A stretch of DNA of 64,000 nucleotides from an uncultured Bacteroides sp. (GTDB taxonomy: Bacteria > Bacteroidota > Bacteroidia > Bacteroidales > Bacteroidaceae). The stretch covers positions 1 to 64,000 of the forward strand of contig CAMOWU010000004.1 in NCBI GenBank assembly GCA_946628545.1, written 5' to 3'. Of this stretch, positions 262 to 20,239 are shown in pieces. Below the pieces are notes generated by a model. The model was given only the letters and a program-made list of their open reading frames with translations, had not been told where the DNA came from and made no database searches. The translations under genes and the position numbers were made by a program. How positions within the stretch are numbered: the first letter of the stretch is position 1; the number at the start of each line of letters is the position of its first letter.

Positions 262-3200
262 CTACATTTTAATCTCGTATAAGGTGTTGTTGTAGATGAT
301 GGCGCAGAGATTTTCTGAAATCACATTCACCCGCATATCCTTATTGATGCTGAAAGCACGGCCTTCTATCTTGATGCTGTCAACATCTGCTTTGATTTCG
401 CCTCTCTCTACTGTCACCAGGTCTTGACCGTCCTTAGTGAACCAGATGGTTTTTCTCGAAGCCTTGAATTCGATGCTGATGCCTCCAATCACCATGTCTT
501 TTTCCACACTGATTTTCTTCATCTTTGTCGTTGGTGTTGTGGTTGTCCCTTTCTCGTTCTCTTCTTCGATTCTTGGTTTTCCCCTTCTTCTCATTTCCTC
601 AACAGAATAGTTCTTGTAGTATTCTCGGCATTTCTTATTGAAAAGATTTGCATTGCCGAAGGAGTAGAAGTAGAGTGCTCTGTTGTGGAAATAATCTACA
701 ACTGCTGGAACTTTGACGAACCGCTGGTTCTTGGCAAGGGTATCATACCGTTTGGCCGTTTCTACTGATTCTTCACCGATAGCTTCCCAAATATAGGTGA
801 CGATCTTGATGGCGTATATATCAATTCTAGGTCTCTCCATAATTGTATGGAGTGCTCTCTCTTGCAAGTCGATAGAATTCTCCATAAAATGAGTGGAAGT
901 TGTTTTATTGGTGTATTCCCGTCGCTTGATGTCGAATTTATAGATCAATTTGGCCAATTCGAAGAAGTCGTCGTAATTGTCGATATCGCATTTCTTTCCG
1001 CCCAGTGCTATCTTGACGAACCATACAGCGTCTTCTCTGTCGAGTATGGAACACAGGTTCTTCACGTTGAAGTCCTTTCCGATTTCTTTCACAATTTTCG
1101 CATAGGTGCATCTTGGTGCGTATTCGAGATTGATGATCTGTTTGCGCAGCTTGAAGTAGTTGATCAACTTCTGTGAAAAGTTGATATTACCGTTGATCAA
1201 TTTGCTGTAGAATTGCATGGCAGCAGTGTAGTCATACTCATACTTGTCAGTGCCCTCTTTAGGAGTGTAGGGAGTGGCGTACTCATAGATTCTGCACAAA
1301 GTGACAAATTCCTCAAATTGGTTGTCCTTTACCTTCTTGTAGGTGTGGATTTTTCTGTCTGTGAAATCACGTAGTCTGTCCTTGATGCGGTCAAGATCTG
1401 CTACTTCGAACTGGCATCCAGAATCCTTGAAATAGATGTTTCTAGTTTGGTTGAATCTGAAGTCCAGTTTACTGAATTCGTTGCTTGAGAATATTCGTAT
1501 GATGGTGTCTGCATACTTGTTGGCGTTGGCAAAGTTGTAGCCAGGCTGATTGAAGAGGACATCGAGGAAACAGGAAGCCAGCGAGTTGTAGTAGTGTTTC
1601 TTCAGTGCATTGCTGATGGCCTCGGCGACACTATTCAAGTTGACGTCGTTTTTCATCACTCGGTAGCCACCGTTGTCTCTCAGTCTCATGAAATAGATCC
1701 AGCAATCGTAGCTGAGACTGAAGATTTTGTCAAAGACTTCCTGAGGGATGATATTGTTGAAGAAGTCTGAGTCATAGCCTTTGAGCGGATTCTCCACCCA
1801 TGTGACGAACGATTCTTCGCTGAAGTCGTCGAGTACGAAAGATTGCAGGAACTGAATAGGGTCGGCATTGCGCAGCTGGTTGAGCTTGTTGTCCGAGTTT
1901 ATCGGATAGTTCAAGGCCTGCTTGAAAGTAGCGGGTTTGCACAGGAGGTTGAAGATGATTCGTTTGGCCCTGTCGTCGAACGTGTCAGCCAAGGCAGGAT
2001 CGGCAAAGTCTTTCAGAATCTCATTGCCTTTTCCTCCTTTCGACATCCAGAAGACCTTTTCGGATAGATCCTGAGCCATCACTTCTTTAGCCGCATAGTA
2101 CGACTTATGTTCTGTCTTTTCGAGTGAATCCCATTTTTGAATGGCTTTGTCGTACTTCTTGTTTCTGAAATACAATTCGGCAATGGTGTCGTTGAGGAAA
2201 GAGAATCCCTGTTGAGTCAGTTTTTCCAGGAACTCGCAGACCACGTGTATGTCGTCCTCGCTGACTTTCTGTGCGTCGGCTTTAATCTTGATCACCACAT
2301 TCCGCCATGTCTCGTTGGTGTTGCGTATTTCGTCGGTGTTGCGTATTATGTCAGCGAATTCAGCCAAAGGAATTCTGCTCTTCATATACTTCGACACCAA
2401 TTTCTGCAGTTCCACATTGCCATAGAGCTCCAGTTCGTCCCAACACATACCGGCCCAGTAAGCCTTTGCAGCCTCTTCGTTGTTGTAGAGGTTGAGGAAT
2501 TTGTCGCCTGCTTCCTTGAAATTCTTGCGGAAGAGGAGCACATAGGCCTTGCAGACTTCCGCTTCATTTCCTTGTCCTCCTTCCTCGAAATAACCAGCGG
2601 CTTTGTTCATGTCTTTTGGGTCTTGGCTGAGCATGGCGTCAGCTTTGAGTCTCTTTGCTGTTTCCAAAGGATCGAAATTTTCCTCAAGTCGTCGTAGAAA
2701 CTCATCCCTGTTGCCAAATTCAATGCCGCCGACCTTGTTCTTCCACGCCTCTCCATCTTGGCGTGTGGCTATGAGTTGGTTGACGAAGGCATTGTCGAAG
2801 AAATAATTCCAGAATTTGTTGTAGTTTTCCTCGGTATCTACGATATAGAGCACTTCTTTTGTTCTGGAAACCGCGATATACAGTTTTGTGAAGAAGTGGG
2901 CAAGTTCGTATTTGTCCGACTCCCTGTCAATCTCCTCCTCATTGACGATTTTTGTGAAGCAGTCAGGCAGATTGTCGGCAAACTTATAGAGGATCACCGC
3001 TTTGAACTCCAGTCCCTTTGATGAGATGGCGGTATAGAGTTTGGTCTTGTTGTCGATGGCGAGCAGCAACGGGTCGTCAATGCTGGTACTTTCGTCGGTC
3101 AGGTTGTTGTCGTCAAGGTTTTTCTCGTATTCACCGTCGTCACCGGTGATGATGCATTCCGTTTTCTCAAATCCCCTTTTGATGAGGTTCTCGTCCTGTT

Positions 3201-5085
3201 CGGATCTGAGGTAGAAGAAGCCAGGTAGTGGGTTGGCTTGTGGGTTCCACTGTTCCTGTGGATTCACTACATCATCAGAAAGGAAGCTTTTGCGGATATA
3301 CTGTATGGAGTTGGCGAATTCCACGATGGTCTTCTTCGACCTGTAGTTGTTGTTGAGCAATTGTTCCCGGAGGCTGATGTGCGTGCCTATCTGTTCGATG
3401 AATGATCTGTCGAAGATTTCCTTCAGTCTTGTCCAGCTGAATCCCGTGGGGCTGACAGTCTGGTTGGGGTCGCCAGCGTATGCAATGGGTATTTTCCTGT
3501 AGTCCTGCAGGTCGTATTCCGTGTATTTTGAAAGGCTCAAGATCAGTTTGTTTTCTATGGGCGTGAAGTCCTGTGCCTCATCGCAGTAGATGATGTCGTA
3601 TTTTTGCTGAGAGGGATTCTTCTCCAGTTTCTGGAGCACGTATCTCACCAGATCCAAGTCATCCCAATATTCTTCGTGGTACTGTTCGTAGTACCAGTTT
3701 TTCCAAATCCTGTAGATGTTCTCGTAGTCTTTGGAACTGATGGTTCTGTCGGAGGCATAGAGATTGTCATAATCTTGTATGTAGAAGAATTTCTGGTGGT
3801 CGCGTCCTTTGATGAATGTTCGGATAATCGACCATACGATTGCTGCTTTGTAGGACTTGGCTTCCGCCAGTTTGCAGTCACTCTCGTATTTCTTTTGAAA
3901 AAGGTCGTAGCTGATGTGACGTGCGGTGGCGAAACGCTGTATTTCCTCTTCGGTTTCGATGAAGTTGTTGATGAGGAAGTCTCTGAAAGGGCAGAAGCAT
4001 TTGTCGAGTTTCTTCTCTTCCTCATCCGTCAGGTTGAATTGATGATACGACGGGTTCTTTCTGAGCAACGCCTTGACCACGTTCCTTGCTTTATCCACGA
4101 GTTTGATGGAGTAGCTGATGAAAAGCATGTCCATAGGTGTTTGTCTTACCGACTTGTAGGAGTAGGCGTGGGCAAACAGGTAGTAGAGGATAGTGGATTT
4201 TCCGCTTCCGGCCAGTCCGTTGATGAAATACGGGTAGGGAGTGTTGTTGAGCACTTCTATTTCCTCGTCCGAAAGAGCGAGGTTGGCGTCGTCATCGTTT
4301 TCCAGATTTTTCCAATCTTCAAACTCTCCATATAGGATCCAGTCAGGGAATCCCCTCTTGGCTTGCTTCAGGAGTCTGATATCTGTAAGGTCACGGTATT
4401 TATTCTCCAGAGCGAGCAAATCAATCTTCAAAGCAAGGTCAAAGAAATAATAGTAGGTGTGATCATCTTTATTCTGTATTCTCAGGGCAATTTCCTTGCC
4501 GTTGGAGAAATGTTCCAGTATCCACCCTTTCTTGTTGGGCTCGGCATGTTGCTTCTCAATCACAATACGTTGCACAGCCTCAAAGAGCAGACGGCGGTCG
4601 TCTTCGAAATCACGGCTGCCGAAATGGTTGCACCACTCCTCCATCTCAAAGACATAGGTTGTGGAAGTGTTGGAGAAGTCGCGTTGGTTCTCGATGTCTC
4701 TCAACTCCAAGGGCAAAGCCGGCTTCGACTCGACCTCAATCATCTCTTGGAACTTGCTTTCAATTTCCTCCAGTTCCCTGGCGTTGTACCTACATCTTTG
4801 CAGCTGAGTTTTCTCATCCAATTTGAGAAACTCAGAGTAATCATCGTGCCTCTTGAAATATTTTCTCGGCACATAGAGGACATTTTCTATGCCCTCTCGT
4901 TCTTCTTCAAAGAAGAGGATGCGTGGATAAGCATCCGTGTTGAATTTTTTGAAGAAGATTTTGGAATGTGAATAGCGGTGGAGCGAGTTGACGTCGGGGG
5001 CATCTAGAAACTTCTTGGCGAAAGGTGGCCATTCCGTCTTGTCGATCCGCTCAAAATCCGTTGTAATGAATATTTGTTTTTCCAT
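262..5085 (-). CDS. Very large UvrD/Rep-like SF1 helicase with helical-repeat C-terminal half
   Basis: Predicted SF1 DNA/RNA helicase of 1607 aa. Walker A (GLAGSGKST, near residue 290), motif II (DEAQD, near 500), a motif V-like SSKGLEFKAVILY and motif VI (AVSRTKE, near 738) are all visible. The first 270 residues and the region from about 820 to 1480 match nothing I know. The latter is helical and TPR-like at its start, with alternating Ala/Tyr/Glu-rich helices such as AAGYFEEGGQGNEAEVCKAY. The last 75 residues look beta-rich. I chose ATG 5085 over a TTG three codons upstream. It lies 175 nt after the preceding gene of the cluster, so it may have its own promoter. Helicases of this size with TPR-like tails recur in accessory and defence loci, but no specific role can be assigned here. 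Confidence 0.85.
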   Translation of the reverse strand: MEKQIFITTDFERIDKTEWPPFAKKFLDAPDVNSLHRYSHSKIFFKKFNTDAYPRILFFEEEREGIENVLYVPRKYFKRHDDYSEFLKLDEKTQLQRCRYNARELEEIESKFQEMIEVESKPALPLELRDIENQRDFSNTSTTYVFEMEEWCNHFGSRDFEDDRRLLFEAVQRIVIEKQHAEPNKKGWILEHFSNGKEIALRIQNKDDHTYYYFFDLALKIDLLALENKYRDLTDIRLLKQAKRGFPDWILYGEFEDWKNLENDDDANLALSDEEIEVLNNTPYPYFINGLAGSGKSTILYYLFAHAYSYKSVRQTPMDMLFISYSIKLVDKARNVVKALLRKNPSYHQFNLTDEEEKKLDKCFCPFRDFLINNFIETEEEIQRFATARHISYDLFQKKYESDCKLAEAKSYKAAIVWSIIRTFIKGRDHQKFFYIQDYDNLYASDRTISSKDYENIYRIWKNWYYEQYHEEYWDDLDLVRYVLQKLEKNPSQQKYDIIYCDEAQDFTPIENKLILSLSKYTEYDLQDYRKIPIAYAGDPNQTVSPTGFSWTRLKEIFDRSFIEQIGTHISLREQLLNNNYRSKKTIVEFANSIQYIRKSFLSDDVVNPQEQWNPQANPLPGFFYLRSEQDENLIKRGFEKTECIITGDDGEYEKNLDDNNLTDESTSIDDPLLLAIDNKTKLYTAISSKGLEFKAVILYKFADNLPDCFTKIVNEEEIDRESDKYELAHFFTKLYIAVSRTKEVLYIVDTEENYNKFWNYFFDNAFVNQLIATRQDGEAWKNKVGGIEFGNRDEFLRRLEENFDPLETAKRLKADAMLSQDPKDMNKAAGYFEEGGQGNEAEVCKAYVLLFRKNFKEAGDKFLNLYNNEEAAKAYWAGMCWDELELYGNVELQKLVSKYMKSRIPLAEFADIIRNTDEIRNTNETWRNVVIKIKADAQKVSEDDIHVVCEFLEKLTQQGFSFLNDTIAELYFRNKKYDKAIQKWDSLEKTEHKSYYAAKEVMAQDLSEKVFWMSKGGKGNEILKDFADPALADTFDDRAKRIIFNLLCKPATFKQALNYPINSDNKLNQLRNADPIQFLQSFVLDDFSEESFVTWVENPLKGYDSDFFNNIIPQEVFDKIFSLSYDCWIYFMRLRDNGGYRVMKNDVNLNSVAEAISNALKKHYYNSLASCFLDVLFNQPGYNFANANKYADTIIRIFSSNEFSKLDFRFNQTRNIYFKDSGCQFEVADLDRIKDRLRDFTDRKIHTYKKVKDNQFEEFVTLCRIYEYATPYTPKEGTDKYEYDYTAAMQFYSKLINGNINFSQKLINYFKLRKQIINLEYAPRCTYAKIVKEIGKDFNVKNLCSILDREDAVWFVKIALGGKKCDIDNYDDFFELAKLIYKFDIKRREYTNKTTSTHFMENSIDLQERALHTIMERPRIDIYAIKIVTYIWEAIGEESVETAKRYDTLAKNQRFVKVPAVVDYFHNRALYFYSFGNANLFNKKCREYYKNYSVEEMRRRGKPRIEEENEKGTTTTPTTKMKKISVEKDMVIGGISIEFKASRKTIWFTKDGQDLVTVERGEIKADVDSIKIEGRAFSINKDMRVNVISENLCAIIYNNTLYEIKM

Positions 5086-5260
5086 AATCAACAAATATTA
5101 AGTTGTTAAGTTTAAGGTTAAAAATACGATTTTTTTTGTCGCTCGTCTTTCGGTTCCCCTAGTAATAGAGTGTGTTCCTATACCGTGTGTCTCCGAAACA
5201 CCCTTTTAAAGTAAAGATAGCAAATAGGAGAATTTCCTATCACGTAGGAAGAGAATAACG
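5086..5260 (-). promoter_or_regulatory. Longest gap in the cluster: possible terminator/promoter before the helicase
   Basis: On the minus strand this spacer begins with a small hairpin (TTCCTA/TAGGAA). It then has TATCTTTA, one mismatch from the Bacteroidetes -7 element TAnnTTTG, and a second small stem around GTGTTTCGGAGACAC. It could allow separate control of the helicase. The match is weak. Confidence 0.3.
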
Positions 5261-6751
5261 TCAATTTAACATGTAGTCATCCAGTTCTGAGGTTGTATGA
5301 ATGATTTCTTCCTCTGGTACACCAACAAATCTGCATAAAGCGATACTTCCCGCTAATCTTTTGTTCAAATCAGGGTTTAAGGCCGCCTCAATCAAACCGC
5401 CAAGTTGTTGATAATAGTCATCGATTCTCTTAAGTATCGCCTGACATTCTTTATTTAAGTTCTCTACCAAAAGGTTGAAGTCTCTTTTCATTTTCTCGAT
5501 GAAAGCCTTTTCTTTCTCACCCATTATATGTTTAGAGATCATCAAGACTGATTTGGAAACGGCAGAACCTACTATTGCACCTAAGATAGGAATGGGAATT
5601 ACAGTCTGTCCTATGGCGGAACCGATTGCTATCAAACCTGCTTCCACACTTAAGGAACACGCAGCATCTCCATACTCTGATTCACTGATTTTGCCGTTCT
5701 TGAAATCATAATATAACGAAGCAAGTCCCATCGTCGAACTAACGATAGCGCTGGCAAAAGGAGCGCTGATACCGACAACCTTTGTAAGACCATATATGCC
5801 CAAACTAGAAACACCTCCTTTAATTGACCCTTTGGAAAAATCATATCCCACATCTTTCCAATCATCCAAAGAGAATTGTGTGATAGCCTTGCCACTCTTG
5901 ATTTTTGCGTATATTTTTATTGCACCAGATGTCGCACCTGTGATAGCGGCACCTATGGCACTATATTTCAATGCTTCTCCCCATGATGCATCTGTGATAT
6001 GCTGGGCTTGTTCCAAGTTTTCTTGTTTCTCTTGGCGGACATCATCAATTTTCTTATCGGTTGTACTGTGGAATTCTTTCTCATAACCATCAAGCGTAGA
6101 ATCAATCCTTCCCAATTGAACCTCATTATATGTAGATACTCCTGGACGTACAACCTCACCAAACGATTTTCCTGTTTCGTTCTCAATCAAGCGGATGGTT
6201 TCCTGGCATTTTCTGATGGTTTTTGAGGATATATCGGCTAAATGGTCACCGTTATATATTTTTTCTAATATTTCGTATTGGTCTTTGGGAATGTGATAAT
6301 ATCCATTATCGGTAAAACCAGGATATTTATGTAGGTGTTCAATTACATGGTCGAGGCTTTTACTCACTCCATTGATGTATTTTGACTGTACTTCTACCCC
6401 ATTAATAATATAATCCTCAGGAGCTGTTCTACCAACACCCTCAAAAGTAGCGGCGGGTTTGATTCCATTAAGAATATCTCGTGCGTTACGGATTTCGACT
6501 TCTACATGTTCAGCGATTTCTCCATGTTTGGTGCCCATACTGCCAAGGATGCCATTAGGATTAGAAGCAAAATCTCGTACGTTTTCTACGCATTGGAGAC
6601 TCTCGGATAATGCAGTCCGGGCATACTCCTCCTTCTCGAAAGCAGTTTGAATGATTTCAGCCATTTTCTCTGCTTTCGTAATTTCTGATTGGTCGATGCC
6701 TTCTTTGATTAAGGCACCGACCAATTGGTCTGTATAGATATTTGAGCGCAT
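5261..6751 (-). CDS. Glycine-zipper membrane protein with a possible nuclease-like motif
   Basis: This 496-aa protein belongs to no family I can name with certainty. Residues 1-250 are soluble and helical. Residues about 256-400 hold three Gly/Ala-rich hydrophobic stretches (for example SAIGAAITGATSGAIKIY and FASAIVSSTMGLASLYY) typical of membrane-inserting glycine zippers. The soluble part includes PEDYIINGVEVQSK (111-124), whose D113 with Q122-x-K124 spacing recalls the D...(E/Q)xK core of PD-(D/E)XK nucleases. This is a weak resemblance only. It starts 1 nt after the upstream glycine-zipper gene, so the two are surely co-transcribed. A role as membrane effector or anchor of the cluster is inference. 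Confidence 0.8.
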   Translation of the reverse strand: MRSNIYTDQLVGALIKEGIDQSEITKAEKMAEIIQTAFEKEEYARTALSESLQCVENVRDFASNPNGILGSMGTKHGEIAEHVEVEIRNARDILNGIKPAATFEGVGRTAPEDYIINGVEVQSKYINGVSKSLDHVIEHLHKYPGFTDNGYYHIPKDQYEILEKIYNGDHLADISSKTIRKCQETIRLIENETGKSFGEVVRPGVSTYNEVQLGRIDSTLDGYEKEFHSTTDKKIDDVRQEKQENLEQAQHITDASWGEALKYSAIGAAITGATSGAIKIYAKIKSGKAITQFSLDDWKDVGYDFSKGSIKGGVSSLGIYGLTKVVGISAPFASAIVSSTMGLASLYYDFKNGKISESEYGDAACSLSVEAGLIAIGSAIGQTVIPIPILGAIVGSAVSKSVLMISKHIMGEKEKAFIEKMKRDFNLLVENLNKECQAILKRIDDYYQQLGGLIEAALNPDLNKRLAGSIALCRFVGVPEEEIIHTTSELDDYMLN

Positions 6752-6752
6752 A

Positions 6753-7589
6753 TCAGGATACTCTCTTGTTGATCAACTCTCCCATGGATTTTACATTGTT
6801 GACCAAAGATGCAAGTTCTTTTTTCTGTTTTTCATTGAAAGAAAGATAGTCTTTGGGGAAGGTATTCACCATTAATGAGATATTCAGACTGGGTTTTAAT
6901 TTCTCTGTATTTTCATACAATCTGATCAGTTCTGCCAGTTTTGGGGTGAGTTTAGCTATATCCTTTCGTATCTCTTGTGCGATTTCATTGGCCTTCTCGG
7001 CTGCCTTTTTGTTCTTGTAGTAAGCAAAAAAACCACCGCCCAAGATAGCAACACCAGCTACTGCCCAACCTACAGGACCAGCCATAGCAAGGAATGCTGA
7101 TCCTGCGCTCATGCCACCACCACCTGCAGCCAAAGCACCACCTCCAAGCCAAGCAAGAGCGGCATTAGTCGCTGCTGCACCAGATAAGGATGCTATAGCC
7201 GTTCCTGTAGAGGCAGTACCAAAAGTAGTTGCCACAGCCATTGCTGCTGTTGGTCCCAATGCAGCTATAGCACTACCAGCGGCTACTCCGCTTCCTGCCA
7301 TTCCTGCTCCCTTGATATTATCCGATGCATTCTGTTTCTCTATCTCAACAGCTTGGACAAATTCGCTAAGAGATAATTTCACATTAGAAATCTCTTTAGC
7401 AAACTCTTTTGGAGAAGAGGCCAAGCTGTTGATATATGCTTCCACTCTATCAATAGCCTTAACTGCAGATTTCCTGGTTTCAAAGAGTTTGAGCGCATAA
7501 TCATTTGCTGATTCGCCAAGTCTGTTATATTCGGCTTCTGTACTTTTCAAAAGTTCAATCGCCTCTTTTTTTGCATTATTGTAGAACAT
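6753..7589 (-). CDS. Gly/Ala-rich membrane-inserting protein
   Basis: 278-aa protein. Residues 1-92 are amphipathic helices. Residues about 94-190 form an extreme Gly/Ala-rich hydrophobic tract (motifs GTASTGTAIASLSGAAATN, WLGGGALAAGGGG, AGPVGWAVAGVAILGGG), followed by a Lys-rich stop (YYKNKKAAEK) and a helical tail. This glycine-zipper module occurs in many accessory-locus membrane proteins and in pore-forming peptides. There is no signal peptide, so insertion from the cytoplasm is likely. It sits directly behind the Hsp70 gene (40-nt gap) and 1 nt before the second membrane gene. The pair could be the membrane target or effector of the chaperone core (inference). Confidence 0.8.
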   Translation of the reverse strand: MFYNNAKKEAIELLKSTEAEYNRLGESANDYALKLFETRKSAVKAIDRVEAYINSLASSPKEFAKEISNVKLSLSEFVQAVEIEKQNASDNIKGAGMAGSGVAAGSAIAALGPTAAMAVATTFGTASTGTAIASLSGAAATNAALAWLGGGALAAGGGGMSAGSAFLAMAGPVGWAVAGVAILGGGFFAYYKNKKAAEKANEIAQEIRKDIAKLTPKLAELIRLYENTEKLKPSLNISLMVNTFPKDYLSFNEKQKKELASLVNNVKSMGELINKRVS

Positions 7590-11487: not shown

Positions 11488-11498
11488 ATTCTTAATCG

Positions 11499-14198
11499 TT
11501 ATAGTTGATTGTCTTTGAATTTTGATATTCCAGACTCTATATCCTCAAATGAAATTACATTGTTGAAGAAATCTCTCTCAATGCAGTTGCTTTTATGAGC
11601 CTGTATGATCTTGTCCGCCACATTTCTTGCCCATCGACCATTTCCGTCGTTACGCTCCATGGTTTTATGTGCTTCGTTTACAAATACACTGATATGTTCT
11701 TTCGCCTCTTGAGATAGTTGATACCCCTTGGCGGCAATGATGCCCATTAGTATGGTCTTGAGTTCGTCTGCATTATAATCCTCAAAATGGACGAAAGTGT
11801 TGAACCGTGATTTCAGTCCAGGGTTTCTGTCCAAGAACGGTTGCATCAACTCTTCGTATCCGGCTATAATAACCACCATCTCATTTCTGTATTTCTCCAT
11901 ACATTGAATCAGCGTGTCTATAGCTTCTTTACCAAAAGAGTCGTTATCATCCTTGACAAGTGAGTACACCTCATCAATGAAAAGCACACCACCTTTTGCA
12001 TGTTCGCAAACATGCGCTACATTCTTAGCCGTTTGCCCGACAATATTGGATACCAATTCTTGTCTGCTGACATCTCTCACATATCGATTAGGAAGGATGC
12101 CCAACTCATGTAGAATTCCAGCCATCAAATTCGCCACAGTAGTCTTACCCGTACCGGGATTGCCATAGAAAACCATGTGTCCCATTGGAATGTCATCTAC
12201 TGGCTGACCTTCCTGTTGGGCTTTGATATCAAATTTTACTTGTTTAATCAAGTCGTCAATTTCTCTTTTCACTTTCGATAGACCTACCAACCTATGTAGT
12301 TGATCGATTGGACTAACCTTTTCTTTCTTCTGCTTTCCTGGTATGAAATCTTTTAGTTCTTCCATATCTAAGCCATCGAAATCACTTGGTTGTAAGCAAG
12401 ATATATCGCTGTCTTTCTGACGTGCGGCAACTTTGCTTTCCACTTTTTCAAACAGATTGCGCACCCAACGTCCGTTGCCGAATTTGTAGAGACCTTTTGT
12501 ACCTTGAATAGGATCAGTTTTAGCTGTACGAGCTTCGTCTTGATCGTATCGCTCCTCTTTATATTCTACTACATATTCCATCATCTGCGAAAGCAGTTTG
12601 TCCACTTCTTCAGGAATAGTGTAACTCTTTCTTGCCGACAATAAGAATATCTGTTTCAATTCTTCTGCATTGTAATCCTCGAAATATATTTCGTTAGGGA
12701 TACGGCTCTTCAAACCTTCGTTCATGTCATAGAGACGTTTCATTTCGTTTTCATATCCTGCAAGGATGACAACAAGTCTGTCTCGATAGTTCTCCATACA
12801 AGCAAGAAGCGTATTGACCGCCTCATGACCGAAATCATTCGATCCACCATCTGCCAATCTATAGGCTTCATCAATGAAAAGCACACCATCGAGAGCGGAT
12901 TCTATCACCTGTCGGGTTTTGATGGCAGTTTGACCGACATAACCAGCAACAAGATGTTCGCGTGAAACTTCAACAAGATGTCCTTTCTTAATGAGACCAA
13001 GGTCTTTTAGAATGCGTGCGACAATACGAGCTACAGTGGTCTTTCCCGTACCTGGATTGCCGTAGAAGACCATGTGTTTGTTGAATGTTGAAACCTCCTT
13101 GCCCTGTTCGCGTTTCATTTCCAATAGTTCTCTGTATGACTGGATTTGCTTCTTGACAGCTTCCAATCCTATCAGTTCTGTCAACTCGTCAAGAGCCTTT
13201 CCCCTCTTTTCAACGCCATCAGACTCGAACGCATTGTAATCATATCTTTTTTTCTTTTTCATAATTGCAATGGTTTCATCCAAAGTGATATAGTTCCCTT
13301 CTTTGAATCCTTTCATAGAAAGTTGGTCACAAATATCTTCTATATTCAACCAATCAATCTCTTTTTGCAAACCATTATACTCAATACGTGCATACTCCAT
13401 TGCCCTGAGTATATCGGAAGTTTGTGGCGAAGAAATGGCAAATGTGTTTTTCTCATTAAGCGTTTCTGAGTCATTATCTCCATCCTTTATAGTTCTTGTA
13501 AAAACATTGCGAAAGTATGTGCTCGTAAAAGCAGAATTATTCAGTTGTTTAAAGATCTTCGTCAATTCATTACGATTGCTGGTGCAATCAAACAAGACAA
13601 TGAGTTTGTTATCGTTACTCTTATGATTTTTTATATCGTTCAAGCGTTCTGATAAGGATTGACTTTGAGTTTGGTCGAACTCAGGAACATTCTCTGTTGC
13701 GGTGACGATGATGGCACAATGCTGTTTTTCGCGAAGATTATAATCAAATTCCCTTAGGTTGGCATCTCTGTTACCTTTACTTTTCGTCTTGAAACGGCCA
13801 TAATCATCCTGTGTGATGTTGTCACGTTGGTCGTTTACCATCATATTCTCAGGAACCTGTGAATTGTCTTTTCTTATCCGAGTGTAACGCGGCTTTCCAA
13901 AAGAATGACCTACTGGCGATGCGTTCAACTCAATTGCATGATTGTCGATCTCTTTATTTTTGGAAGGTGAACCTGCTTCAGACAAGAATTGGCCTAACAT
14001 GTCCTGATTGTAAGAGTAAAAGCCATTAGTTGTGTTAAAGAACACTATTATCTGATAACCTTGTTCTTTCAAGTATAAGTGCAACGCTTGCTCAAGGTTG
14101 TACAATCTCAGTCCTTTGTCTATATAATGATCGTCGTAATGAAATATGCCAGTGATTAATCCGCGATCCTTGATGTTTAGGGCATTAAGTCTATCCAT
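11499..14198 (-). CDS. Tandem CbxX/CfqX-type AAA+ ATPase
   Basis: 899 aa with an unfamiliar N-terminal region (1-330) and two complete AAA+ modules of the CbxX/CfqX class (relatives are Rubisco activase CbbX and the T7SS ATPase EccA). Module 1 has Walker A GNPGTGKTTV (near 376) and Walker B LFIDEAYRL (near 438). Module 2 has GNPGTGKTTV (near 677) and LFIDEVYSL (near 738). Both have sensor/arginine-type motifs (NEGLKSRIPNEIYFEDY and RNPGLKSRFNTFVHFEDY). Two active rings suggest a protein-remodelling machine that could thread or disassemble a complex. It sits between the coiled-coil pair and the FHA-like gene; the 165-nt gap upstream holds a small transposon-like element. Confidence 0.93.
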   Translation of the reverse strand: MDRLNALNIKDRGLITGIFHYDDHYIDKGLRLYNLEQALHLYLKEQGYQIIVFFNTTNGFYSYNQDMLGQFLSEAGSPSKNKEIDNHAIELNASPVGHSFGKPRYTRIRKDNSQVPENMMVNDQRDNITQDDYGRFKTKSKGNRDANLREFDYNLREKQHCAIIVTATENVPEFDQTQSQSLSERLNDIKNHKSNDNKLIVLFDCTSNRNELTKIFKQLNNSAFTSTYFRNVFTRTIKDGDNDSETLNEKNTFAISSPQTSDILRAMEYARIEYNGLQKEIDWLNIEDICDQLSMKGFKEGNYITLDETIAIMKKKKRYDYNAFESDGVEKRGKALDELTELIGLEAVKKQIQSYRELLEMKREQGKEVSTFNKHMVFYGNPGTGKTTVARIVARILKDLGLIKKGHLVEVSREHLVAGYVGQTAIKTRQVIESALDGVLFIDEAYRLADGGSNDFGHEAVNTLLACMENYRDRLVVILAGYENEMKRLYDMNEGLKSRIPNEIYFEDYNAEELKQIFLLSARKSYTIPEEVDKLLSQMMEYVVEYKEERYDQDEARTAKTDPIQGTKGLYKFGNGRWVRNLFEKVESKVAARQKDSDISCLQPSDFDGLDMEELKDFIPGKQKKEKVSPIDQLHRLVGLSKVKREIDDLIKQVKFDIKAQQEGQPVDDIPMGHMVFYGNPGTGKTTVANLMAGILHELGILPNRYVRDVSRQELVSNIVGQTAKNVAHVCEHAKGGVLFIDEVYSLVKDDNDSFGKEAIDTLIQCMEKYRNEMVVIIAGYEELMQPFLDRNPGLKSRFNTFVHFEDYNADELKTILMGIIAAKGYQLSQEAKEHISVFVNEAHKTMERNDGNGRWARNVADKIIQAHKSNCIERDFFNNVISFEDIESGISKFKDNQL

Positions 14199-14229
14199 AT
14201 AGTTTCAGTTGAATTAGGTGTTAATTCAT

Positions 14230-14328
14230 GAACCCACTTGAAAAAGTATTTTTGCCGAAATTTGCTATTTGATTATCAATATGTTACAATCCAATAATCA
14301 GCGATTTGGGACTATTTCAAGTGGGCTC
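14230..14328. mobile_element. 99-bp MITE-like element with 6-bp target duplication
   Basis: Terminal inverted repeats of 19 nt (14230-14248, GAACCCACTTGAAAAAGTA; complement of 14310-14328, GAGCCCACTTGAAATAGTC) differ at three positions. They are flanked by a direct repeat ATTCAT (14224-14229 and 14329-14334). There is no coding capacity. This is what a non-autonomous IS derivative leaves, inserted between two genes of the operon. Confidence 0.7.
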
Positions 14329-14363
14329 ATTCATCATTCTTTGATTTCTACAAACACATGCGA

Positions 14364-15671
14364 TTACCCTGGCATTTGGAGTGGTTTCCTCTCCCCTATT
14401 CCATGGAATCCGCGTGCTTCGGATGAAATATCGAGACTGTCTCCCTGCTTAAATTGGGGAAGATACTCTGCTTGACATCCACGGTATTGACTCATCTCTA
14501 TACCATTCTCATGCAGTTCATCAGCAATGGCCTGAGTGATAGATGCCATAGTTTTCTCATCCATATATGTAGTGGAATCCACACGGAAATACACATCATT
14601 CTCTCCATTCTTGTTGCCCGGATTGATGATGACTTCAATCTGTGCTTCGTCTGTATGTCTATACATACGGACTATATATGCCTCACGTTCGTCTTTTTTG
14701 GCAAAACCTTTGTCAATCAAACTGTATCGATGGTCGTCTGAAAGGATCTGTTCTATGAACTCTCCTTGTGCTTCTCGATGTTGGGACAAGTTGTATTTTG
14801 CACGCGCGTCGTTGAGGAGGAAGTCTTGGATTCCTTCCAGTTCACGGAGCCGTTTCAAGTCCTTTTGCAGTTGCTTGTGGGTGTAATGGGAATCAGTCTG
14901 CCCGTCCAAGAGACGTTTCCGGATTTCCTCCACTTCTTTTTCCATGACAGAAAAACAACCATCTGTCCAGAAGTCAATATCAAGCAACCTACCTGACTTG
15001 TTGTCGATATCCTCGTAATTGTTTTCTCTGATGTTCTTCGCTTGCGTCGTCAAGGTTTCAGCCAGTCGTAGAGCTTCTGAATCGTCTTTGATGAAAGCCA
15101 TTCGTTTGGCGCTGACTTGAATGTCCATTAGGAAGATGTCGTTTAGAATCGTTTCCAGTTGAGCCTGTTTTGCGGCACCGCTGAGTTCTGTATTCTCAAG
15201 GTTTCTCAATTTGATCTGAATGGAATTCATTTCATCTGGCTCGAATCGCATGTAGTTACTATCCAATTGGCAAAGTAAGAACTCGTTCTTGGCCTGCATG
15301 TACATGGAGGCTGTAGATTCTGATGTCTGTTTTAAGGCACTGAGGGCTTCTTCTATGTCATTCGTGGCTTCTTTCAGATGTTCTTGAAGGTCTTGGATAG
15401 AGGCGTGTATTTCTTCGGCTGACTTATTGACGTCATTAAGTACACCGATGGTTCTATTCTCAATAGCATATAGCTTATTGAGATGCTTTTGGCGTGCCTC
15501 AGAGATGCCTTTCTGCATTTCTAAACTTCTACGTTCCATCCTCTCGAGACTTTTTTGGGCATTATTCTCTGCCTGGCGCATAGCTTCTATGTCGCCATGT
15601 TTCAATTTCTGCAATCTTTCGACCTTCTCCAGATATTTTTTCGAAGGCATTTGTTGGTGATTTCCGCTCAT
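14364..15671 (-). CDS. Coiled-coil protein, paralogue of the next gene upstream
   Basis: 435 aa, no known family recognised. Residues about 10-125 are continuous coiled coil (charged, with QAENNAQKSLERMERRSLEM). A middle helical region ends in DIDFWTDGCFSVM (near 231) and a KQLQKDLKRLRELEGI helix. The last 140 residues are alpha/beta (EAYIVRMYRHTDEAQIEVII, TSITQAIADEL-like, NGIEMS). The same order, with DMDYWSDNDFSEVM, a DQLQDDFENLQKI helix and HAYVIEMENH, occurs in the gene at 15701, so the two arose by duplication. The likely role is scaffold or client of the neighbouring AAA+ ATPase. Confidence 0.75.
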   Translation of the reverse strand: MSGNHQQMPSKKYLEKVERLQKLKHGDIEAMRQAENNAQKSLERMERRSLEMQKGISEARQKHLNKLYAIENRTIGVLNDVNKSAEEIHASIQDLQEHLKEATNDIEEALSALKQTSESTASMYMQAKNEFLLCQLDSNYMRFEPDEMNSIQIKLRNLENTELSGAAKQAQLETILNDIFLMDIQVSAKRMAFIKDDSEALRLAETLTTQAKNIRENNYEDIDNKSGRLLDIDFWTDGCFSVMEKEVEEIRKRLLDGQTDSHYTHKQLQKDLKRLRELEGIQDFLLNDARAKYNLSQHREAQGEFIEQILSDDHRYSLIDKGFAKKDEREAYIVRMYRHTDEAQIEVIINPGNKNGENDVYFRVDSTTYMDEKTMASITQAIADELHENGIEMSQYRGCQAEYLPQFKQGDSLDISSEARGFHGIGERKPLQMPG

Positions 15672-15700
15672 AGTTCAATCGTTATTATCGTTGGTTCGTT

Positions 15701-17056
15701 TTATTGATAAGTTTCCCATGCTCGTAATTCAGAGGGAAGACAGATGGGTTCCCCCTTTGGCGTGAATTCAATTTGTTGAACAACACATGGATTCTGCTCT
15801 TTATTGGTCTTATTGATGCTGAATACAATACCGTTCTCGCTTAATTGATACTGAAGTTGTTGCTCAAAATTTTCAAAAGATTTCTCATCCTCATAGTCAC
15901 CTAAGCTAATCTGATGATAGATGACAGATTGCGTTTGAGAGACAGGACTGAATACTAACCTTATCCGCCTGTTCGTGCAGTGATTTTCCATTTCAATGAC
16001 GTAGGCATGACGCTTGTCATTTCCGTCATATCCTAATGCTTTTAGTTCGAAATGAAATTCCTCATAGAGGATCTGGGCTGCTATTTCAGCAAGTTGTTGG
16101 CATTCTTCAGAAACTTTGCAGCGATTGAAGACACCTTGGACAATTTCTTCACCCTGTTCCTTAATCTTCTGTAAGTTTTCAAAGTCATCTTGTAGTTGGT
16201 CGATTTCGTACCCCTCCATGAACTCACCTTTCTGAATACGCTCATAGATGGTTGTAGCGTTCCTCATCACTTCGCTAAAGTCATTGTCTGACCAATAGTC
16301 CATATCGACCTTGTTCTGCTTTGCCTCGTCGAAATAAGTATTATCGCGCCATTGTTCAAATTGTTCAATGATATGCTCTGCTTCGGGTTTGACCAGTAGC
16401 AGAGCGGTTAAGAATTCGGCCTTCTTACGGGTGACGTTCTTTTGTATAGCCTGTACATCGGTTAAAACTTGGATAGCTAATGCTTGTTGTGCCTCATAAG
16501 CTAATGGTTTTTCTCCCATATCATTCAGGAGCTGACGGAGTTTTTCTATTTTCGCTCTTTCAAATTTGATGCAATAACGGTCATCTGCAACATTGTTGTA
16601 TGCGTTAACTGCTTCGTTTCTGTATTTGAGGGCAAGTTCTCGGTTCAACTTTCTATTTTGCTTGATTTCCTCAATCTTTACGTCCAGTTCTCGTTGGGTT
16701 TCCTCCATCTCATTCAATTGGGAACGTAAATGGTTGATCGACTCCTTGAGCTGAGAATAGACAGCCTCTCGTTCTTTCATCTTTTCAACCAAATTATCAT
16801 ATTCCTCAAGAATACGTTGAATATATCGCCCATAGTCTTTTCTATCATTGTCCCATGCCTCAATGATTTTATTGAGCAACTTTGTCAGTTCCTCAGGGCT
16901 GGCGATGGTCGGGTGCTTCTCATAGTACTTAAGTTCTCTTTCCAGTTCCTCCAATGCGCCATTTTCCACCCAGACATAGTCATTTTCATGTGGATCCCAC
17001 CCACCATAAAGGTGTCTGTTGTATTTTCTTTCTTCCTCGCTGATATTCTTTCTCAT
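15701..17056 (-). CDS. Coiled-coil protein, paralogue of the gene at 14364
   Basis: 451 aa. Coiled-coil from about 35 to 190 (REAVYSQLKESINHLRSQLN and similar), then DMDYWSDNDFSEVM near 250. The alpha/beta C-terminal part has HAYVIEMENH, RIRLVFSPVS and LQYQLSENGIVFS. Domain order is shared with its downstream neighbour at 14364. It starts 4 nt after the radical-SAM stop, so the two are probably translationally coupled. Function unknown. Confidence 0.75.
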   Translation of the reverse strand: MRKNISEEERKYNRHLYGGWDPHENDYVWVENGALEELERELKYYEKHPTIASPEELTKLLNKIIEAWDNDRKDYGRYIQRILEEYDNLVEKMKEREAVYSQLKESINHLRSQLNEMEETQRELDVKIEEIKQNRKLNRELALKYRNEAVNAYNNVADDRYCIKFERAKIEKLRQLLNDMGEKPLAYEAQQALAIQVLTDVQAIQKNVTRKKAEFLTALLLVKPEAEHIIEQFEQWRDNTYFDEAKQNKVDMDYWSDNDFSEVMRNATTIYERIQKGEFMEGYEIDQLQDDFENLQKIKEQGEEIVQGVFNRCKVSEECQQLAEIAAQILYEEFHFELKALGYDGNDKRHAYVIEMENHCTNRRIRLVFSPVSQTQSVIYHQISLGDYEDEKSFENFEQQLQYQLSENGIVFSINKTNKEQNPCVVQQIEFTPKGEPICLPSELRAWETYQ

Positions 17057-17060
17057 GTGT

Positions 17061-17633
17061 TTAATTGTTTTGTCGAGTAGCTATGCCAATAGTCAGCAAC
17101 TCGTTTGGATTCAACAAATGTATTTCGCGTTTTCGTTCGCCTTTTGTCAATTCTTCTTGAAAGGATAATAATCTGTCGCTCAGGAATATCAATCGTTGGT
17201 TTTCAGACCCCCTAAGTCCAATGTTATCGTAATTGAGTTCATCAATGTATTCTCCATCAATTAGAAGGTCAATTTGTCGAAGTAATCTTAACGATTTCTC
17301 ATCAGTAATCTCCTCTATCTGAAATCCTGTAAACAAGATGACTGTCAAATCAGGCTTCTGAGAGAGAATGATGTCAAGTAGTTCTGTCAAAGCCTCCGCT
17401 TGTAGAAGAGGTTCACCTCCAGAGATAGTTATACCATCAATCTGAGGAGTGTCGAGAATTTCTTTCGCTAAATCTGAGCATGACACTTCAGCTCCTCCTT
17501 CTTCAGACTGCAGCTCTGGTGCAGTGCATCGATAGCACCTTCTTCGACATCCTTGTACCCAAATCACGAATCTACGACCGGGACCCAGCACTGTTGTGTT
17601 CTTCCATCGATAGCCTATCCTCAGTTTCATCAT
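17061..17633 (-). CDS. Small radical-SAM activating enzyme (NrdG/PflA-like)
   Basis: 190 aa. The cluster motif C29-x3-C33-x2-C36 (GCRRRCYRC) binds the SAM-coordinating [4Fe-4S] centre. GISGGEPLL-type motif II lies near 70-77 (TISGGEPLLQ), followed by DLTVILFTGF. There is no SPASM or auxiliary-cluster extension. The size matches activases such as NrdG, yet no glycyl-radical enzyme is nearby. It therefore probably acts on a protein or peptide of this cluster, and the Ser/Gly-rich 65-aa product at 19115 is one candidate. It overlaps the coiled-coil gene upstream by 62 nt. The N-terminal Gly-Pro-Gly (LGPGRR) typical of this family supports the start. Confidence 0.88.
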   Translation of the reverse strand: MMKLRIGYRWKNTTVLGPGRRFVIWVQGCRRRCYRCTAPELQSEEGGAEVSCSDLAKEILDTPQIDGITISGGEPLLQAEALTELLDIILSQKPDLTVILFTGFQIEEITDEKSLRLLRQIDLLIDGEYIDELNYDNIGLRGSENQRLIFLSDRLLSFQEELTKGERKREIHLLNPNELLTIGIATRQNN

Positions 17634-18072
17634 TTGGCTTTTGGTCTTTCTCTATATCTTTGAACGATCTTTTATTCCGTTTCTTGACAGCCTCGGCAAG
17701 ACGTTTTTCCATTGCGTTCAACCTCTCCCGTATTTCGTTCTTCTCTTTACTGATGGCATCTTCAGTACCTAATTCACATATCCCCTCGATTATCTCCTCA
17801 TAAAGTTCTAATTGCACTTTAAGCGAATGGATGGCGTCTTGTGTCAGTTGTTGACATTTCTCATACTCTTCTTTGAATCTTTTTTCCAAGTCACTCTGAC
17901 TGAATTCGGTTAATGCTATTGAGGCATATTCGGCAATTTTCAGAGTGCTGATTATCGCGCGGAGTAGATCCTTCTCTTCTTTAATCTTGTTCACAACATC
18001 TTCTATTCTCTCTATACGTTGTTTCAAGTCAATGTTTTCCTGTAGAATTTGTTGTATGATGTCCTTTTCCAT
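17572..18072 (-). CDS. Short coiled-coil protein
   Basis: 166 aa from ATG 18072, which I prefer over an ATG 15 codons upstream because it leaves the usual 14-nt gap after the preceding stop instead of an overlap. The start reads MEKDIIQQILQENIDLKQ. The whole chain is charged helix with heptads (QRIERIEDVVNKIKEE, EIRERLNAMEKRLAEAVKKR) and has no recognisable enzyme motif. Its 3' end runs 62 nt into the radical-SAM gene. Confidence 0.65.
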   Translation of the reverse strand: MEKDIIQQILQENIDLKQRIERIEDVVNKIKEEKDLLRAIISTLKIAEYASIALTEFSQSDLEKRFKEEYEKCQQLTQDAIHSLKVQLELYEEIIEGICELGTEDAISKEKNEIRERLNAMEKRLAEAVKKRNKRSFKDIEKDQKPNDETEDRLSMEEHNSAGSRS

Positions 18073-18086
18073 ATTATAATATATAG

Positions 18087-19022
18087 TTATTGACTTATCG
18101 GTGATTTCAGTAAGCATTTTTTTGTGCCATTGGCATTGCTGTGACTTGTGAGCACTGTATTACCGAAAATGTCTATTGATACTTTTATGCTTGTTATCAA
18201 AAGTTTAGTCCCCGCTTCTTCCAAATCTGGTTTGGGGGCATCGCCAGCTATGAGTTCTGAGTAAGGATGTTCGCCGAGGAATCGCTGTTGAAATAATTCA
18301 GAAGAGAGAGGTAATGTGAGAACAAACTCTGAACCGTTTGATAATGGAATACATTCGGTTGCAGATTGATGTGAGTAATGTAGCTTCAGTTCTTTTCCTT
18401 CTCCTAATGCTTCATAATACAATCGGCGAAGTTTAATCATTTTTTCAATACTCAACCATGTTTGCTCTATCCTTTTGACTGGTGCTTCCAAGATGCTCTC
18501 CAGTTCGTATGCAAAGGCATTGAGTTTTGTTGCCTTGCCTATGATGAAGGTTGCACATTTTGAAAAAGGGATTTCTCGTAAAGCCTGCTGTAATTTCGCA
18601 CGAGCTGACTGCATAGTAAGTTGTGAATCGTTCGAAGCGAAAAGATCATCGTAATAGGTATCATAAGTTATTATCCCATCAGGATGAAGGTAATAACTGA
18701 GATTCCACCAATTGATGGTATGATCAGAAGTGAAAACACCGTCAATGAAATTTTCCTTGAATAATGGTGTGGTGTCAACAATAGGCAATTCGGTAACGTG
18801 TACCTTGCCTTCCTCATTGACTTTCACTTTGATGATAAGTTGAGTTTCATCGTCAGCATCTGTCCAGATTTGGAAGTCTTCTTTTGGATGATATCGCTCT
18901 ATAATTTGAAGAATCAGGTTCTCCCTTACGAACGAGCAAGCGTATCTGACACTTTCCAGTTCTGTCAGATACTGCTCGTAATCGTAAAGTCTGTTCTGAT
19001 GTGAATGATTTCCCTTGTTCAT
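18087..19022 (-). CDS. Hypothetical protein of the cluster
   Basis: 311 aa, family not recognised. It mixes alpha and beta with no signal peptide or membrane segment. The middle (WWNLSYYLHPDGIITYDTYYDD, near residues 105-128) is Trp/Tyr-rich. A helix about 190-215 (RIEQTWLSIEKMIKLRRLYY) precedes a beta-rich end (KLLITSIKVSIDIFGNTVL). It lies 92 nt downstream of the 65-aa peptide gene and 14 nt before the coiled-coil gene. Confidence 0.7.
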   Translation of the reverse strand: MNKGNHSHQNRLYDYEQYLTELESVRYACSFVRENLILQIIERYHPKEDFQIWTDADDETQLIIKVKVNEEGKVHVTELPIVDTTPLFKENFIDGVFTSDHTINWWNLSYYLHPDGIITYDTYYDDLFASNDSQLTMQSARAKLQQALREIPFSKCATFIIGKATKLNAFAYELESILEAPVKRIEQTWLSIEKMIKLRRLYYEALGEGKELKLHYSHQSATECIPLSNGSEFVLTLPLSSELFQQRFLGEHPYSELIAGDAPKPDLEEAGTKLLITSIKVSIDIFGNTVLTSHSNANGTKKCLLKSPISQ

Positions 19023-19114
19023 AAGAACTTCTATTTGTAATAAGATATAATTGTCTTATATCCAAACTATCGACCTGAAAGTCCCAATATGGGGGTGGTG
19101 AAAGGAACTACCCA

Positions 19115-19312
19115 TCACTCTCCCTTGGAGTAGGGACCGCTGTCTGGCTTTCTGTAGGTAGTGTCCGACTTGCGATATGATGAAGCTGAACTGCTTGATC
19201 CTGAAGAATATCCACCCCCGGTGGAACTACTGCTTGAACTACCGCTTGAAGCGATGATGTTGCTGATCTCTAATTCAATTACTTGAAAAGTTGGTTTGAA
19301 GTAATGTTCCAT
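19115..19312 (-). CDS. Ser/Gly-rich 65-aa peptide, possible RiPP-type precursor
   Basis: A short leader-like part (MEHYFKPTFQVIELEISN, then IIASSG) is followed by a Ser/Gly stretch (SSSSSSTGGGYSSGSSSSAS). It ends in a Lys/Asp/Pro-rich tail with two YRK(S/P)D copies. The leader resembles the small Bacteroidales peptides with a xPxxxVIxLE... region ending just before a Gly/Ser-rich core. A radical-SAM enzyme lies four genes downstream. A modified peptide is a hypothesis; a disordered structural protein is the alternative. Confidence 0.6.
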   Translation of the reverse strand: MEHYFKPTFQVIELEISNIIASSGSSSSSSTGGGYSSGSSSSASSYRKSDTTYRKPDSGPYSKGE

Positions 19313-19346
19313 AATGTGTGTGTTAATGATTTTATGTTATCTGTTT

Positions 19347-19664
19347 TTACTTTTTGTAGTACTCTGGCCTCTCTGTGTCGCTTTCATCACCACTATTCTC
19401 TATGTATTTAATTGCAGTTCCGTATGCGCTGACATGACGAGTTCCATTATCTTGTTTGGAAATAATGAAAGTCACGCCGATAACTCCATCTGCCCCCATT
19501 TTTCCAGCATGATAACTCAGTTGTTCTATGGCTTTATCCATCGCTTTTCTTATGGGGTCTTGTCCATAAGGGTCATAGCTGTCCGGGGCTTTTGCATTTG
19601 CAGTCACAACACCTAATGCGTTGTATCTTTCGCCTTTTATGTCGTTTAATGTAGAAGTAAACAT
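19347..19664 (-). CDS. YbjQ/DUF74-like protein, first gene of the cluster
   Basis: 105 aa, similar to the YbjQ/UPF0145 (DUF74) family of small oligomeric beta-alpha proteins of unclear function, sometimes annotated heavy-metal-binding. Typical elements are YNALGVVTANA, AIEQLSYHAGKMGADGVIGV and VSAYGTAIKYI. I place the start at ATG 19664, not the ATG at 19712, because the promoter -7 element at 19697-19704 would otherwise lie inside the gene. Confidence 0.75.
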   Translation of the reverse strand: MFTSTLNDIKGERYNALGVVTANAKAPDSYDPYGQDPIRKAMDKAIEQLSYHAGKMGADGVIGVTFIISKQDNGTRHVSAYGTAIKYIENSGDESDTERPEYYKK

Positions 19665-19696
19665 GTCTTTTATTTTTGTTAATTTGAGAAGTCTCG

Positions 19697-19704
19697 CAAA
19701 TTTA
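19697..19704 (-). promoter_or_regulatory. Promoter -7 element for the minus-strand cluster
   Basis: TAAATTTG on the minus strand fits TAnnTTTG and is 33 nt upstream of ATG 19664. No clear -33 TTTG partner is visible. This is the only good promoter candidate found upstream of the cluster. Confidence 0.5.
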
Positions 19705-20239
19705 CTGCCCAAAACACCGTTTGGGGGTGGGGGAGGCGTGGAAAATGATGGGGCTCGTGTGTTTTTGTTGGCGTTTCGTAGCGGGGTACGATTTGCAAAC
19801 AGGTTAAGAAAGGGTGGGGACGCTGAATGGGTGTCCGTGGGGTGCCATCATAGGAGTGGTTCCAATGTTCCTTTTGCCTCTGCTGGTATCGGGTCAGGTG
19901 GACACAAAAAGGGCGTGAATGCTGCTCTTCATTCATCTGTTATCGGGTATCGCCAAACACCTTAGGAGAAATGAATTGGAAGAACAGACACTCACGCTGT
20001 AGGATACACGGGGACATGGCGGGTAAGATACCGCTTGTCCACATCGTATTCGGGCTTCGAGCGTCTATTGGCATCCTCCTACTGTTTGTGTGAAATTGGC
20101 GATTTCGATAACGAGGAAAGTGCGCTTTACGCTTTTCTGGTCACTACGGATAGGGTGGCTCATGTGGAGCTCCCGCCCGTTCGACACTGCAAATATAAAG
20201 AATTATTTTTATTCAGCAAATAAAACAAGGAATTTTTTT

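Follow-up and report, generated by a model that had tools for sequence, protein, structure and literature searches.

What kind of system brings an Hsp70 chaperone, a tandem AAA+ ATPase and a radical SAM protein into one run of 15 genes? This run lies at 262-19712 of the window, by which we mean the whole stretch of 64,000 nt analysed here, from an uncultured Bacteroides sp. (contig CAMOWU010000004.1, or C4:1-64000, of assembly GCA_946628545.1, hereafter G000; 3.79 Mb in 238 contigs). The initial annotation had suggested that the run may form a single unnamed stress or defence system; its description of the cluster was confirmed in part, and its interpretation found partial support. Our comparisons lead, with marginally better than even confidence, to a modular reading: the cluster would be the Hsp70-fronted variant of a machine built from a radical SAM protein (rSAM), coiled-coil proteins and a CbxX-type AAA+ protein, with a role in stress-triggered protection or abortive infection.

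All 15 open reading frames (ORFs), taken as genes, are on the minus strand, as first described, and the Hsp70-form cluster proper spans about 7.6-19.0 kb. The putative core consists of an NrdG-like rSAM, one or two large coiled-coil-like proteins and a CbxX-type AAA+ protein with a non-catalytic N-terminal region. The rSAM (17061..17633, 190 aa) matches Fer4_12 at 1.9e-33 and carries CxxxCxxC (29-36) and SGGEP (71); its score of 107.6 bits against the NrdG model TIGR02491 falls under the cut-off of 126.1 and leaves it outside NrdG as this model defines it. Two coiled-coil-like proteins follow: protein 1 (15701..17056, 451 aa) has weak coil-type Pfam matches and resembles the coil protein of a relative of another form (locus L050), and protein 2 (14364..15671, 435 aa) is placed by its Pfam matches and by comparison with the same L050 protein. 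The AAA+ remodeller (11499..14198, 899 aa) combines an N-terminal region with two CbxX/SpoVK-type AAA+ domains, both with Walker A/B pairs, and reaches 448 bits (two domains summed) against the NCBIfam model spore_V_K, above the cut-off of 422.95. The rSAM, the two CbxX-type domains and the Hsp70 (Pfam 1.3e-62) thus stand as initially annotated.

The N-terminal region of the AAA+ protein (340 residues) has no Walker A motif and looks weakly AAA-like in a predicted model. In this model the predicted local distance difference test score (pLDDT) is below 50 for 141 of the 340 residues. The best E in Foldseek was 1.3e-3, the rows shown having TM-scores of 0.15-0.28, and VIA-align gave a Z of at most 8.7, barely over the level that the tool calls typical for models with no clear match. 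The glycine of a 'YGN' motif in this region was considered as the site of a glycyl radical made by the NrdG-like rSAM and rejected, the window protein being without that glycine; it is nearly, not fully, invariant in a 16-row alignment of the AAA N-terminus.

A profile search of genome contigs with the rSAM alignment confirmed at least 493 relatives, the best 80 of which were used in a census of neighbouring genes against 20 control stretches around NrdG. An AAA gene of the CbxX/N-domain type was found in 38 of the 80 rSAM loci and in none of the controls (one-sided Fisher p 1.7e-5), Hsp70 in 17 against none (p 0.015 by the same test) and the two together in 12 against none (p 0.057). The AAA gene shares the strand of the rSAM in 37 of 38 loci, lying downstream of it in 31, and all 17 Hsp70 genes are on the rSAM strand as well. 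In many loci rSAM and AAA are separated by one or two genes for proteins of about 430-610 aa. The expectation that Hsp70, CbxX and rSAM would recur as a neighbourhood, with patchy distribution and defence genes nearby, was largely borne out: the combination recurs, is patchy within the family, and adjoins the PADLOC candidates PDC-M09 and PDC-S27.

In a tree of 83 rSAM rows, which holds 76 of the 80 loci (150-400 aa; L089, L098, L099 and L103 were left out), the window rSAM falls within a group of 40 rows (support 98/98) that includes Bacteroidota, Cyanobacteriota, Bacillota, Thermodesulfobacteriota and others, with five NrdG rows outside. Of the 38 loci of this group, 25 have AAA and 12 Hsp70; of the other 42, which fall elsewhere in the tree or were not placed in it, 13 have AAA and 5 Hsp70, and none has an N-domain match. 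The rSAM of locus L081 pairs with a Lachnospiraceae rSAM (100/95), a grouping that suggests transfer between phyla. The same stretch, in the congener G065, carries a TerD array with this related rSAM (L209:4255-7580). For Hsp70, a tree of 15 of the 17 loci (E under 1e-20) has a split (100/100) with every one of the 18 system rows on one side and nine DnaK, which belong to a single family, on the other; under midpoint rooting it places the Bacteroidaceae system Hsp70s with those DnaK (92/91, not starred). Viral contigs gave 47 rSAM matches; none of their stretches holds Hsp70, and two show a weak match to CbxX.

What accompanies the rSAM varies. TerD genes lie upstream of it in 9 of the 80 loci, mostly in Clostridia, against none of the 20 controls (p 0.12). 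Three loci (L069, L078 and L084) start with a P-type-ATPase-like gene (by eye), TerD genes, the rSAM and a 250-374-aa protein, and continue with two proteins of about 485-545 aa, followed by an AAA protein that bears three Walker A motifs; two of the three loci end in a kinase-like gene (by eye, with a hidden Markov model (HMM) match in L078 only). In Calothrix, a similar set is found on a mobilizable plasmid: Hsp70, rSAM, one coil-like protein, AAA with an N-terminus that by eye looks alike, and a DO-GTPase. Related rSAM genes were also seen on other plasmids. On a Treponema succinifaciens plasmid (L151:11941-16165) one lies with an AAA gene among VgrG and phage-baseplate-type genes, in a contractile-injection-like locus. 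Conjugative plasmids of Rhizobium and Moellerella (L153:8142-16883 and L154:632-10585) hold AAA and a related rSAM; close to these a large 'AAA domain-containing' protein is encoded, with integrase genes near it in Moellerella.

Within the Bacteroidaceae, the system Hsp70 occurs in three of 101 genomes (G000, 1067 bits; G094, 943; G058, 619) with a model built to include the G000 and G094 sequences; the next matches score at most 227 bits and are mostly DnaK-type frames of 620-750 aa. The rSAM type exceeds 300 bits at six loci from five genomes, two in G000 and one each in G017, G044, G052 and G094; five of the six loci are contained in the model, and G044 is close to G017. G065 scores 158 bits and the remaining matches at most 117. 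The second G000 locus, on contig C28, repeats the core. It encodes a protein at the position of g18087 (the gene at 18087..19022 of the window) and a small helical-looking protein, together with the rSAM, one coil-like protein and an AAA protein. The last has the N-terminal region and two AAA domains and ends in a trypsin-like domain with GxSGGP, the motif having been verified for the G017 and G094 copies. The window AAA+ protein is without this C-terminal domain. On C28 the core is followed by vWA, PP2C and kinase genes, the triad of TerY-P systems; the G000 vWA and PP2C match PADLOC TerY (3e-20) and PP2C (7e-17), and the kinase of the congener G017 matches STK_OB (3e-35). This copy has a G+C content at third codon positions (GC3) of 0.54-0.71 and chromosomal neighbours common to G017. 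HMMs found all three TerY-P genes at C28 and in G017, G044 and G052; the Hsp70 form is found in G094 and, in part, in G058, where a contig end interrupts it. In the seven Bacteroidaceae loci scanned, Hsp70 (window, G094, G058) and the TerY-P genes (C28, G017, G044, G052) never occur together. Judged from gene content, control genes are swapped around a shared core, be they Hsp70, the TerY-P vWA/PP2C/kinase genes, TerD or DO-GTPase.

Two side observations concern these genomes. Another AT-rich cluster in G000 (contig C9, L035:7983-19515) encodes a kinase with a transmembrane region, a tandem CbxX AAA protein (1133 aa), an FHA-like/zinc-ribbon protein and a PP2C; similar sets occur in G075 (L042), G073 (L043) and G005 (L048). 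A TIR-like protein (PADLOC SAVED_TIR 5.8e-7; L208:8750-12019) is encoded 274 nt from the end gene of the G058 Hsp70-form cluster.

The window Hsp70 (7630..9264, 544 aa) scores 212.3 bits against the Pfam HSP70 cut-off of 20.6 and retains the ATPase motifs: both phosphate motifs, the adenosine motif and the KRNMG lysine motif. Its length suggests a short C-terminus with the helical lid missing. In the G000 assembly, PF00012 matches the cluster Hsp70 and one partial sequence on contig C22; no full-length DnaK was found there, perhaps through an assembly gap. A search for a J-domain partner, by scanning the query proteins for HPD, returned a single match, in g18087, whose context is not that of a J-domain (by eye). 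The two genes beside the Hsp70 are tentative exchange factors: candidate 1 (9304..10002, 232 aa), which adjoins it, and candidate 2 (10015..10638, 207 aa), its paralogue, are mutually similar (phmmer 1e-9 in a 12-sequence set). The GrpE-like label is retained as tentative because the G058 gene at the position of candidate 1 matches Pfam GrpE at 9e-5, below the cut-off of that family, and a Calothrix neighbour (L064) gives a weak GrpE HMM match (7.6e-5 in a seven-sequence set). No sequence likeness was detected between the window pair and the G094/G058 pair. The model of candidate 1 is poor (pLDDT 54); Foldseek ranks Thermus thermophilus GrpE first and second, at E 1.3 and 1.5.

Several observations weigh against a modular machine with an Hsp70/GrpE front. 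The HMMs of the 80-locus census were partly seeded from the tested set, and all 20 control stretches come from one family, the Bacteroidaceae. The CbxX/N-domain AAA is missing from 42 of the 80 rSAM loci; among the 40 stretches of at least 18 kb, AAA is found in 20 and not in the other 20, and Hsp70 in 7 and not in 33. Gene order is not universal: of 38 loci, 6 have AAA upstream of the rSAM and one has it on the opposite strand. The stretch with the G058 Hsp70 form, cut by the contig end, holds no visible rSAM of this type. The Hsp70 tree is compatible with one recruitment as well as with several, and its long branches caution against reading more from it. For the exchange factors, hhalign against 15 Bacteroidales GrpE (taken from 20 loci, after two wrong ORFs were removed by hand and three were not extracted) gave a probability below 3% for the window genes, and likewise for the G094/G058 pair; a second structural aligner, VIA-align, placed no GrpE among its top 50.

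How did the cluster come to lie here? Fourteen genes, from 5.2 to 19.7 kb, have a GC3 of 0.34-0.47, against 0.51-0.73 for ORFs of at least 250 aa from 23 kb onward. The AT-rich codon use initially claimed for all 15 genes thus applies to these 14, the UvrD-like helicase at the end of the array (262..5094, 1610 aa) having a host-like GC3 of 0.61. The Hsp70-form cluster of G094, another genus, likewise has GC3 values of 0.26-0.39 up to the Hsp70 against 0.76 and 0.51 in two flanking genes. As the window starts at a contig end, one flank is usable for an empty-site comparison. The flank gene at 24042-28706 has a 70% orthologue in G017; the 5.9 kb visible past its 3' end show no PDC-S27 match and no cluster gene; the ORFs present there are different ones, of which one looks ATPase-like by eye. 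No system Hsp70 was found anywhere in the G017 assembly (87% complete). The window cluster was probably acquired, since it is AT-rich, has an Hsp70 type present in three of 101 family genomes and missing from this congener. The helicase is probably native and outside the unit because of its host-like GC3.

Spacing within the array agrees with the first description save in one figure. Cluster ORFs are separated by 1-92 nt or overlap by 31 and 62 nt, and there are two larger gaps: one of 165 nt (14199-14363), and one before the helicase which measures 166 nt rather than the 175 nt first given, a value that depends on the start codon. The 165-nt gap contains, as proposed, a miniature inverted-repeat transposable element (MITE)-like repeat (14215..14345, inverted arms 14228-14247 and 14311-14330), of which the genome holds three further copies (96-99% identity over 100-114 nt) and one partial copy.

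Directly downstream of the Hsp70 lie PDC-M09A (6753..7589, PADLOC 4.3e-104), with two hydrophobic stretches, and its partner PDC-M09B (5261..6751, PADLOC 3.7e-170), spaced at 1 and 40 nt; the adjacency of the two qualifies them as the PADLOC candidate PDC-M09. A glycine zipper had been proposed among the modules of the array; M09A and M09B have hydrophobic Gly-rich stretches, in which a pattern search found no GxxxGxxxG. The pair also occurs in G084 (M09B 59%, M09A segments 63-65%), where a 10.6-kb stretch ending 1.2 kb upstream of it gave no Hsp70 match, and in two viral contigs (L286:9832-12199 and L287:3105-5416; M09A 59% and 43%), among neighbours that look like phage baseplate and tail genes. 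Because the pair is found without Hsp70 in G084 and in these two phage-like contigs, M09A/B is, as far as sequence comparison goes, a mobile cassette of its own. M09B matches 5 of 101 family genomes, two at 1e-165 or better; M09A matches 10 of 395 genomes of the phylum, five marginally; of the 14 control genomes one, Sulfolobus, is also positive. HMM searches found no M09 match in the Hsp70-form stretches of G094 and G058, and a literature search found no paper on 'PDC-M09'. In the window the pair could be the membrane-acting output of the Hsp70 cluster or a second, co-located defence cassette.

The remaining genes are as follows. A YbjQ-family small protein (19347..19712, Pfam YbjQ_1 6.4e-11), of uncertain membership, heads the array, followed by an ORF of 65 aa (19115-19312) without Pfam match or other support. 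Next comes g18087 (311 aa), the equivalent, by position only, of L050:8680-9537 in a TerY-P form; it has no Pfam or PADLOC family, matched nothing in the order's 294 other genomes at E 1e-3, and was dropped as a marker of the system since its own window locus is the sole match among the 295. The small helical-looking protein (17572..18117, 181 aa) overlaps its neighbours on both sides, and one of this kind lies upstream of the rSAM in several other loci (by eye). Between the AAA+ protein and the exchange-factor candidates, the gene at 10648..11487 encodes a zinc ribbon (two CxxC), a coiled coil and an FHA-like C-terminus; the FHA domain initially annotated was not upheld, its PF00498 match (E 0.078) being below threshold. 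Defence candidates of PADLOC flank the cluster, PDC-M09 on one side and, on the other, outside the cluster and on the plus strand, the ATPase PDC-S27 (20990..22411, 1.2e-203); for most core-defensome PDCs, validation is said to be pending (PMC12988326). Repeated TTGACCATTGACCATT units lie at 20219-20541, between the cluster and PDC-S27, with similar stretches in the congener G017 (L294).

A literature search found no paper describing this gene set, part of which may be covered by Anantharaman et al. 2012 on Ter systems. The cluster looks like a variant of widespread, apparently unstudied conflict or stress systems of the chaperone/Ter type; we file it as a variant because HMMs find no TerY-P, TerD or DO-GTPase in the window while the themes are known. 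The TerY-P triad (vWA, PP2C and Ser/Thr kinase, as set out in PMC11090510) lies beside the same core in the C28 sister cluster, whereas the window has none of the three, with Hsp70 and the two candidate exchange factors in their place; in the same paper, TerY-P-like modules with an OB-fold kinase are said to act as antiphage systems. As in TerD tellurite/stress operons, the rSAM follows TerD in 9 of 80 loci, with the coil-like and three-Walker AAA proteins next in the loci read, but the window has no TerD. GAP1-N2 GTPase systems combine HSP70 and GrpE in one theme and kinase, PP2C and vWA in another, according to Kaur et al. 2020 (PMC7159879); a DO-GTPase adjoins the Calothrix set and the window has Hsp70 and tentative GrpE-like candidates, yet no DO-GTPase was found in it with an HMM from four cyanobacterial genes, and its rSAM is NrdG-like. 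The words CbxX, SpoVK and EccA are absent from the main text of that paper. Elements are also shared with the CoCoNuT superoperons, for which PMC11090510 describes a SpoVK AAA+ with a glycine-zipper protein inside, and where tandem SpoVK-type AAA+, an Hsp70-like domain, coiled coils, TerY-P and the glycine-zipper protein meet in one predicted defence superoperon; both window AAA domains have Walker motifs, whereas in CoCoNuT only the C-terminal one does. No McrC-type match appeared among the listed Pfam rows of the cluster proteins, no dedicated search for the McrB GTPase or McrC having been made. PDC-M09, finally, has both its genes in the window, as a cassette separable from, and not equal to, the Hsp70 cluster.

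If the modular reading holds, Hsp70, perhaps with the GrpE-like exchange factors, would sense or hold clients, proteins that stress or infection exposes, and relay either these or a signal to the AAA+ ring, which would remodel the coiled-coil scaffold. The rSAM might place a radical-derived modification on a partner, scaffold or AAA+, arming the complex and perhaps coupling it to redox or iron status. In relatives the trypsin-like protease fused to the AAA+ would be the likely output; in the window, which lacks that domain, PDC-M09A/B may provide a membrane output. In the literature searched, no named defence system was seen to be armed by radical modification of a scaffold or motor. An antiphage role is inferred because of the neighbouring defence candidates and the link to ter and TerY-P genes.

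That last step is where the main competitor enters. The locus may instead belong to general proteostasis or to a metal or oxidative stress response unrelated to phages, a Ter-like module whose Hsp70, AAA+ and, in relatives, protease handle damaged proteins. We regard this as possible, with a weight approaching one third: TerD arrays stand beside the rSAM, preceded in the loci read by what by eye looks like a P-type ATPase gene, the TerY-P form has native GC3 and neighbours common to G000 and G017 as if kept vertically, and YbjQ heads the array. Yet the Hsp70 form is patchy, AT-rich and adjacent to defence candidates, and the ter operon itself is reported to be implicated in phage inhibition (PMC8123226).

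The original proposal of one 15-gene defence system, helicase and membrane effectors included, is now unlikely. The unbroken same-strand array with short gaps speaks for it, as does the codon use of M09A/B, which is that of the cluster, together with their tight spacing; against it, M09A/B stands without Hsp70 in the G084 stretch and in two phage-like contigs, is unmatched in the G094 and G058 stretches, and the helicase has a host-like GC3. The M09 pair is separable and the helicase native-looking, and the rest resembles a variant of a broader module that elsewhere has TerY-P, TerD or GTPase genes where the window has Hsp70. A secretion role, with an EccA/CbxX-like ATPase and FHA-like partner serving a type VII-like exporter, is highly improbable: the EccA model gives the window AAA+ protein 424.4 bits, but this is under the cut-off of 466.65, and the Pfam matches listed for the cluster proteins include no FtsK/EssC-type or WXG100 family. 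Equally hard to credit is a chance array of unrelated mobile genes, for which one may cite the MITE inside the array, the differing control genes of relatives and the many rSAM loci without AAA or Hsp70; co-occurrence and strand agreement across phyla, against none of the 20 controls, already disfavour chance.

The preferred reading, a modular rSAM/coiled-coil/AAA+ machine with an Hsp70 front, allows a broader and more doubtful proposal: an undescribed class of immune or stress machines, in which an rSAM-armed, coiled-coil-coupled AAA+ remodeller would receive plug-in sensors (Hsp70/GrpE, TerY-P, TerD or DO-GTPase) and plug-in outputs (protease or membrane pair). TerD/TerY-P switches, Hsp70-based conflict systems, DO-GTPase systems and CbxX AAA+ proteins would then be tied together by one rSAM/coiled-coil/AAA+ core. 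PDC-M09 emerges as a cassette present in two phage-like contigs. The comparison also offers a hypothesis for what the long-puzzling Ter-type genes may control, together with a small set of genes on which it can be tested.

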